From assembly GCA_944326485.1 (NCBI GenBank), contig CALVED010000002.1, forward strand, positions 248,001-312,000: a DNA stretch of 64,000 bases. The letters run 5' to 3'. Source of the stretch: Candidatus Gastranaerophilales bacterium (GTDB lineage: Bacteria > Cyanobacteriota > Vampirovibrionia > Gastranaerophilales > Gastranaerophilaceae). The position numbers and the translations under genes were made by a program. A model generated the notes under the pieces. The model was not told the origin of the DNA. It made no database searches and was given only the letters and a program-made list of their open reading frames with translations. This document shows, piece by piece, positions 37,597 through 45,791 of the stretch. Each line of letters begins with the position of its first letter. Positions within the stretch are counted from its first letter, which is position 1.

Positions 37597-40500
37597 TTAT
37601 CTTTCTATAGAGTTGAGTTGACAAAATGTTTTAAAAGAAGATCGTTCTTTAGATGCTTTTTCAATTAGTGGACTTATTTTTAAATCTTTAGCAATAAAAA
37701 TAGCTTTATTGTACATGTCATTAGTAAGCTTTATGTAATCTTCATTAAATGTTTGTTTTGTATTCATATATTCTTCCATATATTTGCCATAATCAATATA
37801 TAAATCGACAAGTTGATATTTTAGATTGTATTGTTTCGCAAGCATAATAGCTTTTTCAAGGTACATTTTAACTGCAATTAAATCACCTTTTAATAAATAT
37901 ATTTCGGCTATAAATTGTTGGAAGTATATAATAAAGAAGAAATTATTTATTTTAGGGCTCTGGGCTATTTCTAGTGCTTTAGTTGCCGTATTAAGAGCTT
38001 TATCTATATCACCCATATCTATACTTATTTTAACGATTAATGCCCAAGAAAGAAGTGCTCCAATTGCAACTTTCTCTTTTGCAAAATATGTTATTTCTTC
38101 ATTGAAAATTGTTAGAGCTTTCGCTGTATTTCCTTCTTCTTTTAAAATATAACCTAATATTAACTTTATAATATTTTTCATAAAGTGTTCATTGATATTA
38201 TTTGTAAATGCAGCAAGCTCAAATAAATCTGCCTTTATATCATCATTTTGTTTTGTCAAAATTCTGTTAATTATGTTAATTAGGTTCCATTCCGATAATA
38301 AAGATGGAGACATTGATGATGTTTTATACCTTTGCATGATACTTGTTAATATTTCATTAGAGGTATTAATATTACCATAAGAGGTATTTGCAAATGCTTC
38401 TATTAAATCGGTTTGAGTTATATAATAAGCAGTTTTGTAATTATATTGTGATAAAAAGTCTTTGATTGCAGTTGTAATAGAAAATACTTCATTATTACCT
38501 TGAAGTACAAAAGCTTTTGCAAGTACAGTATTAGATAATATCCAAGCATCAATTAAAATATTTTTATAACTTGTATCAACTTGTTTTGATGAAAGCTCCT
38601 TATTAATTTCAGGAAGTATTTCTTCTTGAATGATATTAATAATTTGTTCACTATTTCCAATATTTAACAAGGCTTTAAGTTTTCTTGTTTTTATCAATGC
38701 TAAATCACAATCTGATACTTTATTCCCTTCAGGAGGAATACTTGCAATAATAGCATCTACAGCTTCAGCTGCACCAAAGTAATTACCTGTTAAATAACAA
38801 CTGTTAATAAAGTATCCTGATACGTCAATTATTTTATTTATGTTATTTGCTTTTATTTCTGAGTCTAGTACATTTGCAAGATAAGTTATTGCTTCTGTTG
38901 GAGATTTTATGCTTAAAAGTTTTCCTATTTGTTCATATATAATAGAACGAATGATTTCCGCATCTTTTATTGATTGTTCTTCTAATATTTTTAAACATTG
39001 TTTTTGTGCTATAACATATAAATTTGTATCACCAAGCTTGGCTGTTATTTCAGAAGTGTCTTTCCAGATATTAAATTCTTCTTGCTTATTTAATGCTGCT
39101 GCACAAGATATTAGTTTTTGTATGTTGCTTGAAAGAATTAGAGGTTTTAAAGTTGCATATAATCGTTCAGAATTTTCCTTAAAAAGGAGATCATTTTTTG
39201 CTTCTTGGTATATTAATTTCCATATAGTTAAACTTTTGAATTCACAAGTAAAATTATCTACAGGAGATATAAAAAGTTCTTGTTTAAGAAAATCTATTAT
39301 TTTTTCAGCCTTTTTTACAGGCATGTCTACAGATAAACATAAAATATTTGTTGCGAACCTATATCCCATAATAGCAGCCATAAAAAGAATATTTTTTGTA
39401 CTTGGTGCTAATGCATTTATTCTTAATTTTATTAATTCTTCTAATGATTTTGGTTCATTTTCATATCTGTTATTTTCATCTATATATATTTCATTATCTT
39501 TTATACTAATATAATTTATGTCAAATAAAAATGCTATTTCTTGTTCCATTCTTATTGCATTACCTTCTGTTCTTTTTATGATTTCATCTAAATAGTTAGA
39601 AGGCATAATTTCTTCTATGTTCAAGGAAATAGATCTATTTACTGCATCTATTAATTCATTCCTATTAAATTTTTTAAGACAAATTGTTTCGAATATATTC
39701 TCATCAACCACTGTAATGTCAAAATAACTTTGTATAGATTTATTCTCTTGATAGGCAACAAATAATTTTAATCTGTTATTAAAAAACTTACTTTCCATTA
39801 AATGCATAATAAAATCATATGAAGCACCATCTAATAATTCAAAATTATCAATCGTAATTATTAAATTAGAATTTAATAGGAATGATTTGATAACTTTTTC
39901 TAGTACAGAAAACAATTGTTGTTTATTTTCCAGAATATTTTCAAATGAATCTTTTTCTACAGGATAAAAAATATTCAAAAACAGCAAGAGTTCATGCTCT
40001 TTCAAAAAATTAAAAACATTTGCAAAAGAACTTTTTTTAAAGTCTTTTATAAAAGTATCTTTACTGTTTATAAATGGTGGAAAGCCCATCATTCGAAGAA
40101 ATGCATCTTGGAAAAATCCAAAACTTGTTATTTGAGATAAAGGTGTACAATTTCCATATAAAGAAATATATTTTTCATTTTCTAATAGTGTAGAAACTTG
40201 TTTTAATACAGCTGTTTTTCCACAACCTTCGGGGCCGTTTATAGCAATAACATGTTTATTTATTGAATTTTTTATTGTAAAAACAGCTTTTTTTACAGCA
40301 TCTTGTTGTACTGTTATATCTTGATAATTAAATCCTTTTTCAGAATCAAAATCCTGTTCGTTATTTTGATCATACTGTTCTTCATTTTCATTATTAAGGC
40401 TTTCTTGAACATCAATATCAACAAATTCCTCTATTGGTTGTATATCAATTTCGTCTTCAAGAAAATCATTATTTTTTTGTTTATTATTGTTTATTATTGA

Positions 40501-41247
40501 ATAGTCTTGATTATTATCGTTATTGCTTGTTTCATCTGATAAATTTATTTCTTTATTTTGAACAGCAGTTTTTTCTTTTGTATCATCTTCCGTGGACAAG
40601 ACTTTTTCGTTATTGTTATTATCCGGAATTGTATTGATATTATCTTCTAATATTTCTTCTTGTATTTGTGAAGAATTATTTTCTGATGTTTTATTTTCTA
40701 TTTTTTCTTGAGATTCTTGTGTGAATTCTTTTCCTTCTTTATCTTGGTTGTCGTTGCATTCTTGTTGATTATTTTTTTCATTTAATTCTTTTGTTTCTTC
40801 ATGTTCGTCTATATCAAGGGTAGAATCTGTTTCTTCTATACTATTAAGGAAATGGTTGTTTTGTTCGCTATAATCCTGTGGATTTATTTCTTTTTCACAA
40901 GAAGGTATATCTTCTTTTTGATGTAGTGGGTTTACAATATTGCAATCTTGAGAAGAATCATTGTTTATTTCAGTACAGCTTATAGGTCTTACAATTTCTA
41001 ATTCAGTATTTGTAACTTGATTATTTAGAGGAGTCTTACATTTTCTGCATTCTTTAGCAGAATATATATTGGAGCATTTACAGTTCGGACAAGTTTTAAT
41101 TAGTTCATAACCGCAATTTTTACAATATTTTGTCCCAAAAACATTAAGTGTTTTACACTCCGGACAAATCATGTTTACTTTTATTCCACAATTACTACAT
41201 CTGATTGCATTATCAGGTAAAGAAGCTCCGCATTTACGACAAATCAT
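37597..41247 (-). CDS. Triple zinc-ribbon / P-loop ATPase / TPR protein, third gene of sigma-factor operon
   Basis: A large (1,216-residue) regulatory-type protein. Residues 1-75 hold three zinc ribbons in tandem (C3-x2-C6 with C17-x2-C20, C28/C31 with C42/C45, C53/C56 with C67/C70). Residues about 80-315 form an acidic, Asn/Gln/Glu-rich linker expected to be disordered. An AAA/STAND-like ATPase follows: Walker A INGPEGCGKTAVLKQ (about 336-344), Walker B LIITIDNFELL (about 463), and a winged-helix-like region to about 650. The rest is a helical array of TPR-like repeats to the C-terminus. The layout resembles signal-transduction ATPases of the MalT or cyclase-associated type but lacks an output enzyme domain. 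It is cytosolic. It begins 10 bp after the sigma-factor gene, so they are one operon. The function is not known. Confidence 0.82.
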   Translation of the reverse strand: MICRKCGASLPDNAIRCSNCGIKVNMICPECKTLNVFGTKYCKNCGYELIKTCPNCKCSNIYSAKECRKCKTPLNNQVTNTELEIVRPISCTEINNDSSQDCNIVNPLHQKEDIPSCEKEINPQDYSEQNNHFLNSIEETDSTLDIDEHEETKELNEKNNQQECNDNQDKEGKEFTQESQEKIENKTSENNSSQIQEEILEDNINTIPDNNNNEKVLSTEDDTKEKTAVQNKEINLSDETSNNDNNQDYSIINNNKQKNNDFLEDEIDIQPIEEFVDIDVQESLNNENEEQYDQNNEQDFDSEKGFNYQDITVQQDAVKKAVFTIKNSINKHVIAINGPEGCGKTAVLKQVSTLLENEKYISLYGNCTPLSQITSFGFFQDAFLRMMGFPPFINSKDTFIKDFKKSSFANVFNFLKEHELLLFLNIFYPVEKDSFENILENKQQLFSVLEKVIKSFLLNSNLIITIDNFELLDGASYDFIMHLMESKFFNNRLKLFVAYQENKSIQSYFDITVVDENIFETICLKKFNRNELIDAVNRSISLNIEEIMPSNYLDEIIKRTEGNAIRMEQEIAFLFDINYISIKDNEIYIDENNRYENEPKSLEELIKLRINALAPSTKNILFMAAIMGYRFATNILCLSVDMPVKKAEKIIDFLKQELFISPVDNFTCEFKSLTIWKLIYQEAKNDLLFKENSERLYATLKPLILSSNIQKLISCAAALNKQEEFNIWKDTSEITAKLGDTNLYVIAQKQCLKILEEQSIKDAEIIRSIIYEQIGKLLSIKSPTEAITYLANVLDSEIKANNINKIIDVSGYFINSCYLTGNYFGAAEAVDAIIASIPPEGNKVSDCDLALIKTRKLKALLNIGNSEQIINIIQEEILPEINKELSSKQVDTSYKNILIDAWILSNTVLAKAFVLQGNNEVFSITTAIKDFLSQYNYKTAYYITQTDLIEAFANTSYGNINTSNEILTSIMQRYKTSSMSPSLLSEWNLINIINRILTKQNDDIKADLFELAAFTNNINEHFMKNIIKLILGYILKEEGNTAKALTIFNEEITYFAKEKVAIGALLSWALIVKISIDMGDIDKALNTATKALEIAQSPKINNFFFIIYFQQFIAEIYLLKGDLIAVKMYLEKAIMLAKQYNLKYQLVDLYIDYGKYMEEYMNTKQTFNEDYIKLTNDMYNKAIFIAKDLKISPLIEKASKERSSFKTFCQLNSIER

Positions 41248-41256
41248 GATTCAAAC

Positions 41257-41841
41257 CTAACTTTTGCTGTTATCGAGAAAATTACTTATTAATTTAGATA
41301 ATTGCATAAGCCTTTTACTGATTTCAGATTGTGATAAATTTAAAGATTTGGAAATTTCACTTTGTTTAAGCCCTTTTACATATCTTAAATAAAAAATGTC
41401 TAAAAAAGCCTGAGATGGCAATTCTTTATGTATAATACAAACGGCATCTGCAATTCTTTGAAGGCAATCTTTTGTAATAAGTATTTCTTCTGCACTATCT
41501 TTGGGATCAGGAAAGTCTAAAATAAAATTAGGATCAACTGCTTGTGCTTTTTCTGTTCCAACTGCAAGATTGGATACTGTAACTTCTTTTGTTGGTATGT
41601 ATCCTTCAGATGTTCTTCTTATTCTCCCTGAATTTTTTAGAACGCATAATATTGAGGTATGGACTACTTTTGTAACATAATTTTCGATTTTTTGAATATT
41701 AGAAGAAGAATTGAACATCATATATGATTTTTGAAATGCTTCACTACAAAAATCTTCAAATAAGTCTTCATTTCCTTTGAAGTTCTTGTTAGATTTTACT
41801 ATTTTTTCTATTAAAGATCTTTGTTCTTCAACTAAAAGCAC
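41257..41841 (-). CDS. Sigma-70-like (ECF-type) RNA polymerase sigma factor
   Basis: The 194-residue product has two helical domains joined by a linker. The N-terminal part (about 8-65, EDLFEDFCSEAFQKSYMMF) fits a diverged region 2, and the C-terminal part has a clear region 4 helix-turn-helix (about 140-185: FYLRYVKGLKQSEISKSLNLSQSEISKRL). The middle linker (about 80-125) is long for an ECF factor. The start is GTG 41841; the Shine-Dalgarno is weak, and translation may couple to the upstream gene, whose stop is 48 bp away. It lies between a ZAS-type transmembrane anti-sigma candidate and a zinc-ribbon ATPase. In Cyanobacteria, DUF1822 genes are often next to sigma factors of this sort (recalled, not checked). 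A non-sigma HTH regulator is the alternative. Confidence 0.75.
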   Translation of the reverse strand: MLLVEEQRSLIEKIVKSNKNFKGNEDLFEDFCSEAFQKSYMMFNSSSNIQKIENYVTKVVHTSILCVLKNSGRIRRTSEGYIPTKEVTVSNLAVGTEKAQAVDPNFILDFPDPKDSAEEILITKDCLQRIADAVCIIHKELPSQAFLDIFYLRYVKGLKQSEISKSLNLSQSEISKRLMQLSKLISNFLDNSKS

Positions 41842-41889: not shown

Positions 41890-44469
41890 TTACAATTTTA
41901 TTACTACTTGTAAGAAATATTTATCCGCTTTTTGCTCGCTATCATTGAGAATAGTGGTTTTTTGAGATTCAACTGTTTCTTTAATACTTTGTAACACAAT
42001 GTTATCAATTTCGTTTGAACCGCTTGAAGTTGATACTAATGTTTTCAATAAATTACCATTATTATCTATTGCTATTTTAACCGCAACTGAATTATTTGTA
42101 GGAATATCTGTAGTATCAAGTATATTTTTCCTTAAATTCAGTTTTAAAATGTTATCTAAATTTTGCAGGTAATTTTTAAATATTTTATCAGTAAATAAGC
42201 TTGGTGCACACATCCAATTTACTCCTCTGATAGAAACATTATTTATTCCATTAGAAAAAGCATTCGACATAACTTTATTAATGTCACCAGTTGGTTTATT
42301 ATTGGTTAATAAATCTTTTTCCGTTAGAGGTTTTGCTTCATTAATATTATTGTTTGTTACTGCAGGAATATTAATATTTTCTGTTTCCGGAGTATCAATA
42401 ATTCCTGGTGGAGGTATTAAATCATTATTTGTTGGAATGTTATTATTAACATTATTTTCTGCTGCAATTAAATCATTAGTAGTTGGCTCGTTTGTTTCAG
42501 GTTGCTCGAACATGTCATTTGTTGTGTTTGCGTCTGGTATTTCAGTTTGGCTTGCAGAATTTGTATTGCTAGTATGTGTGGCAGCATTAATATATTTCAT
42601 GGCAAATAATGCTCCACCAGATGCAATAATGAATATTAATATAAATAATCCTGCTATTAATCCTTTTTTTGATGTTTTTTTGTTTTGTTCAATACCGTCA
42701 TTTTCTGATTCATCCTCTTCATATTCATCATCTTCAGGATCCAATAGTTCATCATCATCTTCTTTAAATGTATCTTCATCAGAGAATAGAGGATCATCTT
42801 CGAGTTTTTCATCAAAATCTTGTATTTCCTCTTCATCTTCCGCATCATTTTCAAAATTATTGTTCTGATTTAATTGAGTTATGTTGTTTGGACTGTCTAC
42901 AATAGATTTACTGATTGTAGAATTAGTATTTGTAACCTCATCTATTTCATTTTCTTTTTCATCTTTTATATCTTCAATTTCTTCGATGTTTGATATATCT
43001 TTTGTATTCTCTATATTCTCTGAAATATCATCAGGTTCAGAAATATTTTGTTCCGTATCAATTATAGTCTTATCTTTTGCTTCGTTTTCTGTTTTTGATT
43101 CTATATTTGAATCTGATACATTTGTTATATATGAATATATTGGTTCTCCAAATTCATCATAATCTACAATTACTTTTTCTACTTTATCTTCTTCTTTTTT
43201 ATCTTCAATAATTGTAGGTTCTTCTGTAATAATTTCTGGTATAGAATCTTTTATTGGTTCTATTTCGGTAGTTTTGTCTTCTTCTATGAAAACTAAGTCG
43301 GGTTTTTTATTTATATCTAAGAAATTTTCTTCAATTAAATTTAATTCTTCTTCTGAAAAGCTTTCAGTTTTTGGATTATCTTCAATAATCATTTCAAGAT
43401 CTTCTGTATTATTGCCTAAATCTAAAAGATTAGAACTTGAATCTTCATCTAAAATATCTAAATCTTCCTGTTCTATAATATCTTTAGGAGAAATAGAATC
43501 TATAATTGATTTTTCTTTTGTGTTTTCTTCTATTGGTTTCGTTTCTTCATCTATATTAAATAATTCATCCAATATATCAGAAACAGTTTCTTCTTGTTCT
43601 TTTGAGCTTTCATCAATTATTTCTTCTTCTTTGTTTTCTTCAATTCCTGTATTTGGAGAATCATTTATTTCATCTTTATTTTCGAAATAAATTGTTTCTT
43701 CTTTATCTTTATATTTTGAAGAATCAATCGCCTGAGCTCCTACTATGTTAAGTGTTTGATCTTCAAGAAGTTCCGGATATTTGCTCAAATTGCAGCTAAC
43801 CATTTCAAAACCTGTAAAACAGCAGAATTCTGTACGGCATTCACAGCATTCAAATAAGTGTTTTAAGATTTTGTTTTTGGTACTTCTATCAATTTCATTA
43901 TCCATTAAGCTTAAATAAGATTCTTTAAATAGATTATGATCTTCTTCTTTAAAGTTTATTATTTTTTTTGATTTGACTTTATTTAAAAATTCTTCATAGC
44001 TTATTAAATTGCTGTTTGAAACGCTATAATAGTGGTAATCGAATCCTTCTTTTGGCATTGTTTCAGTATCAGCAAATCCTATTAATTCTGCACTGGTTAA
44101 TTTTTTATCTACTTTTATTACTGCATAAAAATCAGGTACTATATCGGTATCGAAGTGGATTTTTGGAACGAGAAATGCGTTTCCGTCTGTAATTATACGA
44201 ACATCAATATGCCAATTATTTACATATAAGTCTGAAATTTCATACTGTTCATTTAGTAGTGGATTCCTAAATATTGTCATTGATTTTTGTATGTCATAAT
44301 CAGTTTTTTCAAGGAGATTAATTAATGCATATAATGCAGCAATAGATGCATATGCTCTTTTCCTTTGAAAATTGTCAGATAAAAGTGATGAGTATATTTT
44401 TGCATAACTATGTGCTTTTTCATCTATTTGTAATTTAATTATGTCTGTAGGTGTCATATTTTTCTCCAA
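41890..44469 (-). CDS. DUF1822-like transmembrane anti-sigma candidate with TonB-like C-terminal domain
   Basis: The 859-residue product has, in order: a DUF1822-like N-terminal domain (about 30-140, with AALYALINLLEK, a D-V-R strand and ELIGFADTE); a zinc-binding anti-sigma motif H204-x3-C208-x2-C211 in KHLFECCECRTEF; a very acidic disordered linker (about 245-600); one membrane helix (about 605-627, GLIAGLFILIFIIASGGALF); an Asn/Thr/Pro-rich periplasmic stretch; and a TonB C-terminal-like domain (about 755-859, VAVKIAIDNNGNLLKTLVSTSSGSNEID). The predicted topology is N-in, C-out. The small sigma factor is encoded immediately downstream, so holding and releasing that factor in response to an envelope signal is the simplest reading. 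GGAG precedes the ATG. Function is inference; the motifs are directly visible. Confidence 0.8.
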   Translation of the reverse strand: MEKNMTPTDIIKLQIDEKAHSYAKIYSSLLSDNFQRKRAYASIAALYALINLLEKTDYDIQKSMTIFRNPLLNEQYEISDLYVNNWHIDVRIITDGNAFLVPKIHFDTDIVPDFYAVIKVDKKLTSAELIGFADTETMPKEGFDYHYYSVSNSNLISYEEFLNKVKSKKIINFKEEDHNLFKESYLSLMDNEIDRSTKNKILKHLFECCECRTEFCCFTGFEMVSCNLSKYPELLEDQTLNIVGAQAIDSSKYKDKEETIYFENKDEINDSPNTGIEENKEEEIIDESSKEQEETVSDILDELFNIDEETKPIEENTKEKSIIDSISPKDIIEQEDLDILDEDSSSNLLDLGNNTEDLEMIIEDNPKTESFSEEELNLIEENFLDINKKPDLVFIEEDKTTEIEPIKDSIPEIITEEPTIIEDKKEEDKVEKVIVDYDEFGEPIYSYITNVSDSNIESKTENEAKDKTIIDTEQNISEPDDISENIENTKDISNIEEIEDIKDEKENEIDEVTNTNSTISKSIVDSPNNITQLNQNNNFENDAEDEEEIQDFDEKLEDDPLFSDEDTFKEDDDELLDPEDDEYEEDESENDGIEQNKKTSKKGLIAGLFILIFIIASGGALFAMKYINAATHTSNTNSASQTEIPDANTTNDMFEQPETNEPTTNDLIAAENNVNNNIPTNNDLIPPPGIIDTPETENINIPAVTNNNINEAKPLTEKDLLTNNKPTGDINKVMSNAFSNGINNVSIRGVNWMCAPSLFTDKIFKNYLQNLDNILKLNLRKNILDTTDIPTNNSVAVKIAIDNNGNLLKTLVSTSSGSNEIDNIVLQSIKETVESQKTTILNDSEQKADKYFLQVVIKL

Positions 44470-44587
44470 ACTTATACCTAGTATCCACTTAAATAAAACT
44501 TTCTATTTATATAGATAGCAGATTAAAAAAAAATATTCCAATTTAAATAAAAATACTATAAATAGATGAGTAAAGTATTTATTTATC

Positions 44588-44679: not shown

Positions 44680-44797
44680 AAAGAAGTCTCGATGTGTTTT
44701 TTTATGAAATGTAACAAAATATTAAGCAAAAAGGATTAAAAGAACAATTTTTTATAATCATAGGTTTTATGAATTTACCAAAGTGAAGGAGGTAATT

Positions 44798-45166
44798 ATG
44801 ATTAGTTCGGTAAGTTTTGCAAGTGCTCAAACAGGTGCAACAAGTTTTGAGGATAAAATAAAGCAACCACAAGCATACGTAACAAAAGAAGCACCACAAG
44901 CTGCAACAAAGATTAACGGTAAAGAAAAAAAGGGTAGTGCAGGCAAAACAGCTGCGAAACTGGCAATTGCCGCAGTCGCTATAGCTGCTGTATTAGCAGG
45001 TGTTTCTAAAAAAGGTATATTAAAAGTAAATCCTGATGGAAATAAAACTTTAAATGCTATTAAAACAGGAATAAATACTGCCGGAAATTGGATTTTTGAA
45101 AAAGCAGTATCTCTAAAAGACAAGGTATTACCAAAAGCCCAAGAACATATTGATGATTTGGCCTAA
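44798..45166 (+). CDS. Small membrane protein, paralogue of the next gene
   Basis: Not recognised. The 122-residue product has a Ser/Thr/Gln-rich head (MISSVSFASAQTGATSFEDK), a lysine-rich stretch, and one alanine-rich hydrophobic helix (about 52-71, AAKLAIAAVAIAAVLAGV). It continues with SKKGILKVNPDG and an amphipathic C-terminal half. AAGGAGGT 5 nt before ATG 44798 fixes the start; an in-frame GTG at 44783 lies just ahead of that Shine-Dalgarno. The block from the hydrophobic helix through KKG.L...G is shared with the gene at 45375. It has its own promoter and terminator. The overall plan (polar head, one hydrophobic segment, helical tail) resembles the MKIN/FKG proteins, though the head differs. 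Confidence 0.75.
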   Translation: MISSVSFASAQTGATSFEDKIKQPQAYVTKEAPQAATKINGKEKKGSAGKTAAKLAIAAVAIAAVLAGVSKKGILKVNPDGNKTLNAIKTGINTAGNWIFEKAVSLKDKVLPKAQEHIDDLA

Positions 45167-45374: not shown

Positions 45375-45791
45375 ATGATACAACCAGTTCAAGCACAAAG
45401 CAAAACAAGTCCTGTAAAAACCGCAGTAAAAACAGCAGCTGCTGCAGCCGTTGCAACAGGTACAGTTCTTTATCTTGCAAAAAAGGGTAAGTTAAATCCA
45501 GCTGAAGGAGATAATATAGTTATAAAAAATGTTAAAGCAGGACTTAAAAAACCTGCAGATTATGTTCTTAACAAAGGTGGTAATTTAATCAATAGATTAA
45601 ATTCTGTAATAGCTAATAATGAAAAATTATCTCTCGCAAAAAAGAAAATAGACTCAATCGGTTCGAATGTTTCTAAACTAAAAAATGATTTCCTTGCTTC
45701 TGATTTTAAGGCAGGAATTGATAAAAAAGTAGATACTTTAAAAGATTTTGTTGAAAGTAAATTTAATAAAGTAAAATTTTCAGGAAAATAG
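45375..45791 (+). CDS. Small membrane protein, paralogue of the preceding gene
   Basis: Not recognised. The 138-residue product starts MIQPVQAQSKTS, then a basic alanine-rich hydrophobic segment (about 14-38, AVKTAAAAAVATGTVLYLA) followed by KKGKLNPAEGDN, which parallels KKGILKVNPDGN in the neighbouring gene. The remaining 95 residues are lysine-rich amphipathic helix ending in KVKFSGK, reminiscent of the FKG motif placed at the opposite end in the MKIN proteins. AGGAG precedes the ATG. A terminator and copy E of the dispersed repeat follow. The upstream spacer holds a TTACAT (45229-45234) and an ATGTAA (45291-45296) like the XRE operator half-sites, possibly by chance. Confidence 0.75.
   Translation: MIQPVQAQSKTSPVKTAVKTAAAAAVATGTVLYLAKKGKLNPAEGDNIVIKNVKAGLKKPADYVLNKGGNLINRLNSVIANNEKLSLAKKKIDSIGSNVSKLKNDFLASDFKAGIDKKVDTLKDFVESKFNKVKFSGK

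Follow-up and report, generated by a model that had tools for sequence, protein, structure and literature searches.

The window, a stretch of 64,000 nucleotides from Candidatus Gastranaerophilales bacterium, carries an 859-codon open reading frame at 41890-44469 on the minus strand. The TTG with which this frame mechanically opens (44469) shares bases with the Shine-Dalgarno-like GGAG of the ribosome-binding site, and an alignment of 36 upstream regions points to an ATG at 44457 as the conserved start. Because of this overlap and the conservation of the ATG, the fusion protein is probably 855 amino acids long; residues are numbered here in the 859-aa frame. The features of the locus are as follows.

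44513..44541, minus strand: predicted autoregulated ECF promoter, TTGGAATA-N13-TGCTATCT
41890..44457, minus strand: protein with DUF1822, anti-sigma zinc domain, transmembrane helix and TonB-like domain; ATG start (mechanical frame from TTG 44469)
43969..44433, minus strand: N-terminal half of DUF1822, residues 13-167, with a predicted alpha/beta fold arranged like PD-(D/E)XK and unlikely to be catalytic
43792..43956, minus strand: class-I anti-sigma domain, residues 172-226, three predicted helices
43936..43938, minus strand: H178, upstream zinc ligand
43837..43860, minus strand: zinc motif H204-x3-C208-x2-C211
42670..43791, minus strand: acidic cytoplasmic linker, probably disordered, residues 227-600; 34% D+E, 8% K+R
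42604..42660, minus strand: single membrane helix, residues 604-622, with K-rich N-terminal flank and no S-x3-H
42265..42579, minus strand: periplasmic linker, residues 631-735; 21% N, 15% T, 10% P
41893..42225, minus strand: TonB/TolA-like C-terminal domain, residues 749-859
41257..41841, minus strand: cognate ECF-type sigma factor, 194 aa (NCBIfam sigma70-ECF, 46.2 bits, cut-off 42.9; adjacency conserved)
37597..41247, minus strand: third operon gene, 1216 aa, with zinc ribbon, AAA (STAND-like) ATPase and MalT-like TPR

A preliminary description of this DNA had proposed that one membrane protein joins an anti-sigma domain of the zinc type to a TonB-like domain, and the present analysis supports this proposal. 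The DUF1822 domain, the adjoining sigma gene and the promoter were absent from that description.

A profile built from 29 homologues of the adjoining sigma factor matches SigW (5wuq_A) with an E-value of 3e-5, and in structure 5wuq SigW is the partner of the anti-sigma factor RsiW. The order of anti-sigma, sigma and ATPase genes is kept through the genus, in most of family f1, and in families f5 and f7. The sigma neighbour is also kept in f2, f3 and f4, so that a sigma gene is adjacent in f1-f5 and f7. Family f6 and genera g34, g35, g38 and g40 have no adjacent sigma gene, and a sigma relative lies elsewhere in those of their genomes that were tested. On the other side of the operon, two small proteins are encoded divergently on the plus strand at 44783-45166 and 45375-45791; neither matches any family above cut-off, and many operons of the genus have a relative of one of them, or of both, alongside.

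It is common for ECF sigma factors to transcribe their own operon. Upstream of 35 of the 36 genus operons lies a pattern of GGAATA, thirteen mostly A/T bases and TGYNNTCW, the core columns of which are invariant. The window holds no second exact match. In 15 genomes the pattern occurs beyond the operon about as often as a reversed-pattern control, with no wider regulon found, and one relative (G009) gave no match in this search. Because the promoter is conserved at the operon and close to background elsewhere, and because such sigma factors are often self-driving, this pattern points to autoregulation of the operon by its sigma factor from GGAATA-N13-TGYNNTCW. Of 36 more distant members, 12 also have the strict form of the promoter upstream, compared with 2.4% of random control stretches from the same loci, and one f6 gene that lacks an adjoining sigma gene is among these 12. 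The motif was not found upstream of the genes of family f3 or of the sigma-less f1 genera tested, nor at the unlinked sigma genes of f6. Where the f6 sigma gene lies elsewhere, a GGAATA promoter still precedes the anti-sigma gene (exact with a shorter spacer at L076, degenerate at L072). A recurrent inverted repeat, TCTA-N6-TAGA, lies downstream of the -10 element (minus strand, 44500-44520 in the window), and about 32 of 35 promoters retain a TAG at a constant distance.

The H204-x3-C208-x2-C211 motif had been read as the signature of a zinc anti-sigma factor, and this reading is supported. H178, located 26 residues upstream of H204, completes the usual ligand set, and the full set of four occurs in 68 of 88 distinct orthologue N-termini. 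The H-C-C residues are conserved in the genus and in most families, although several lineages carry none of the zinc ligands. Most of the remaining N-termini lose three or four ligands together, and such joint retention or loss is the behaviour predicted for a zinc site. Since whole lineages do without the ligands, zinc is dispensable; groups of anti-sigma factors that mix zinc and non-zinc members are known (PMC7406223). In a profile search for the anti-sigma zinc finger, 30 of 40 orthologous N-termini match Pfam zf-HC2, but no zinc-finger model, zf-HC2 included, fires on the window protein itself. With a profile of the 40 orthologous N-termini, the best solved-structure match at the zinc site is RsiW (E 0.006), and DdvA and 3hug are also matched at residues 186-228. 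An AF2 model of residues 1-245 has a pLDDT of 90 and places three helices in the anti-sigma segment; its residues 177-245 align to RsiW with a Z-score of 6.9 but a high rmsd of 7.1.

The anti-sigma domain is preceded by a match to Pfam DUF1822 (PF08852) at residues 13-167, which scores 44.8 bits against a cut-off of 25, covers only profile positions 1-162 of 370, and recurs in all 40 orthologous N-termini. In the AF2 model this half aligns mostly to PD-(D/E)XK nucleases, the best being Hjc with a Z-score of 8.3, within the caution range of the tool. Foldseek returned no match with E below 0.05 for the DUF1822/zinc model. For the most part D80, D89-x-R91 and K103 are conserved; a clear (D/E)-x-K motif is not seen. 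Because this Z-score falls in the caution range and that motif is not evident, the assignment of a nuclease-like fold to this half is tentative. DUF1822 is found in 188 of 292 genomes across the phylum and in none of 14 control genomes. In photosynthetic cyanobacteria the DUF1822 proteins are typically about 300-500 aa long, and a sigma gene adjoins DUF1822 in 26 of the 30 top-scoring loci; Hx3Cx2C was not found in the loci examined. Neighbourhoods of DUF1822 and ECF sigma genes have been noted before, with DUF1822 called a TPR protein (PMC8195603). Contrary to that label, no TPR is seen in the AF2 model of the N-terminal half.

The long acidic linker contains two segments, TVSDILDELF (minus strand, 43558-43587) and VIVDYDEFGEPIYSYIT (minus strand, 43123-43173), that are strongly conserved in the genus and not found in other families; they are possible binding motifs within a probably disordered region. 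The linker leads to one membrane helix at residues 604-622, in agreement with the single helix placed earlier at about 605-627. Positive charge is greater on the zinc-domain side of this helix, and in most orthologue transmembrane segments examined K and R are more frequent before the helix than after it. This excess suggests that the N-terminus is cytoplasmic.

The prediction that residues 750-859 fold as a TonB-type C-terminal domain is borne out by structure modelling. The AF2 model of residues 730-859 has a pLDDT of 90 and aligns to TolA over 97 residues (Z 9.5, rmsd 2.9), and its top 24 structural matches are all domains of the TonB/TolA type, with Z-scores from 9.5 to 4.6. Pfam TonB_2 matches residues 767-833 of the window protein with 25.7 bits (cut-off 22) as well as 33 of 36 orthologue C-termini. 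The four best solved structures for a profile of these C-termini are TonB, TonB, TolA and TolA, each with a weak E-value, and the profile aligns with the separate TonB of the same genome over 78 columns. A search of solved structures with the whole fusion protein gave no match.

The fusion protein is present in all 35 genus genomes searched and in most of the order, and 52 distinct orthologues were aligned. The fused layout of N-terminal module, acidic linker, one transmembrane helix and TonB-like domain occurs in each of the seven sampled families (f1-f7), and nearly all complete copies retain the TonB-like tail. Outside the order there are weak profile matches, with E about 1e-4, in f8, f9 and f48. 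Genus g28 has two neighbouring frames in place of the fused gene (L181, L182), an N-terminal one and one with the TonB-like domain, and both lie upstream of the sigma gene.

Sequence and prediction thus yield the domains, the operon, the conserved promoter and the order-wide conservation, and these make it probable that in the Gastranaerophilales the protein serves as a class-I anti-sigma factor that is anchored in the membrane, has a periplasmic sensor of the TonB/TolA type and is encoded in an autoregulated sigma operon. On the cytoplasmic side, the zinc anti-sigma domain next to DUF1822 would hold the product of the adjoining ECF sigma gene. The long acidic tether and the membrane helix would link this domain to the short periplasmic linker and the TonB-like domain, which, like TonB and TolA, may dock on a periplasmic partner by beta-strand addition. 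Altered docking, caused by envelope state, a ligand or force, would then release the sigma factor through proteolysis or a conformational change. The freed sigma factor would transcribe its own operon from GGAATA-N13-TGYNNTCW to give more sigma factor, anti-sigma factor and ATPase/TPR protein. Several observations speak against this scheme, namely the loss of zinc ligands in some lineages, the unlinked sigma genes of f6, g34, g35, g38 and g40, and the high rmsd of the RsiW match. The anti-sigma domain is also internal, whereas those of RseA and RsiW are N-terminal.

The known ligands of TonB/TolA domains lie at or near the outer membrane. The tail may bind an outer-membrane protein and make the fusion a one-piece trans-envelope tether like Dma of Bacteroides. 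A periplasmic linker of 105 residues is in line with such a tether, and Dma likewise joins an anti-sigma domain, a transmembrane helix, a disordered tether and a barrel in one protein (PMC13088901). However, the fusion protein has no barrel, and the TolB-Pal system was rejected as a partner, since none of the 24 relatives has TolB and the genome itself has no OmpA-type domain. The earlier suggestion that the protein senses TonB-dependent outer-membrane receptors is not supported: a receptor plug domain is found in only 10 of 24 relatives' genomes, compared with at least 23 of the same 24 for the N-terminal module of the fusion, and receptor sensing therefore cannot be the general role of the tail. 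The companion suggestion, that envelope strain is sensed, is possible. By plug search the genome itself has one receptor (L141:3948-7022, minus strand), beside FecCD and periplasmic-binding-protein genes. An outer-membrane link is a tentative proposal, and it is a refinement of the membrane-anchored sensor more than a competitor to it. Just as tentatively, the system may be viewed as a sigma switch that spans the envelope in one piece throughout the order. In this view a domain of the TonB type, originally an energiser of outer-membrane proteins, would have been co-opted to sense either those proteins or the envelope gap. It would report through a module of degenerate nuclease-like DUF1822 and anti-sigma domain, and this module would trace to sigma regulators of photosynthetic cyanobacteria.

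It is improbable that the zinc site itself is the sensor, responding to cytoplasmic redox state or metal as in RsrA or ChrR, with the tail serving only as an anchor. The variation of the four-ligand site as a unit would fit such a sensor, as would the extra cysteines of the window protein (C209, C216, C217 and C226) and a weak NCBIfam match to RsrA (E 0.07). However, whole lineages have lost the ligands and yet kept the sigma gene, the ATPase gene and the TonB-like tail, and the mixture of zinc and non-zinc members in one group fits a structural zinc (PMC7406223). Less probable still is a TonB energiser that powers a receptor with ExbB/ExbD and controls sigma as a secondary output: the C-terminal fold and the presence of ExbB and ExbD in 24 of 24 relatives, all of which also have TonB_C proteins, would suit it, but plug domains are found in only 10 of 24 genomes, the genome has a separate tonB-exbB-exbD-exbD operon whose TonB carries the S-x3-H motif as SILLH, and S-x3-H is absent from the eight transmembrane segments inspected, while only 2 of 51 segments have a His close to the helix. 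Because the membrane helix of the fusion protein lacks S-x3-H, the tail is best described as a TonB-like sensor or dock, not an energiser.

If the membrane-anchored sensor is the correct reading, TonB-like domains can act as the sensing end of a transcription switch, beyond energy coupling. Sigma control would become a proposed function for part of the uncharacterised cyanobacterial DUF1822 family, for which the PD-(D/E)XK resemblance could supply a fold across the phylum. The system would also be a first candidate for envelope signalling in the Gastranaerophilales, the non-photosynthetic gut relatives of cyanobacteria, and its promoter motif makes the switch testable in E. coli.

The cyanobacterial DUF1822 proteins encoded beside sigma genes share with the fusion protein the N-terminal Pfam family and the adjoining sigma gene; they differ in being about 300-500 aa long and in the Hx3Cx2C motif, which was not found in them. 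The cell-surface-signalling anti-sigma factors FecR and FpvR are also anti-sigma proteins with one transmembrane helix and are conceptually linked to TonB systems. The fusion had been set apart from this arrangement, and rightly so: a Pfam scan of the window protein up to E 1 reports no FecR domain, the TonB-like domain is in the same chain, and receptor plugs are found in only 10 of 24 relatives. The C-terminal domains of TonB and TolA share the fold and the SSG(S)-x2-(I/V)-D motif; unlike those proteins, the fusion has a helix devoid of S-x3-H, a periplasmic linker that is not proline-rich (21% N, 15% T, 10% P) and an attached anti-sigma domain.

The Dma anti-sigma factors likewise combine a cytoplasmic anti-sigma domain, a transmembrane helix, a disordered tether and an envelope-facing C-terminal domain in one protein. 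Dma ends in an outer-membrane beta-barrel, has been reported only in Bacteroidota and pairs with ECF21 (PMC13088901), whereas the fusion protein ends in a TonB/TolA fold and its disordered tether is mainly cytoplasmic. In its cytoplasmic part the fusion protein comes closest to the class-I ECF anti-sigma factors RsiW, RslA and RsrA, with which it shares Hx3Cx2C with an upstream His, three predicted helices, an adjoining ECF sigma gene and a conserved ECF-style promoter upstream. The fusion departs from them in its internal anti-sigma domain after DUF1822, its acidic tether of about 370 aa and its TonB-like periplasmic domain. Searches of open-licence full texts found no report of a fusion of TonB with an anti-sigma factor or with zf-HC2, nor of anti-sigma or sigma factors in Gastranaerophilales/Melainabacteria. 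The protein is thus probably of a known kind, a class-I anti-sigma factor, and what is new, in the open-licence literature searched, is its fusion to a TonB-like tail.
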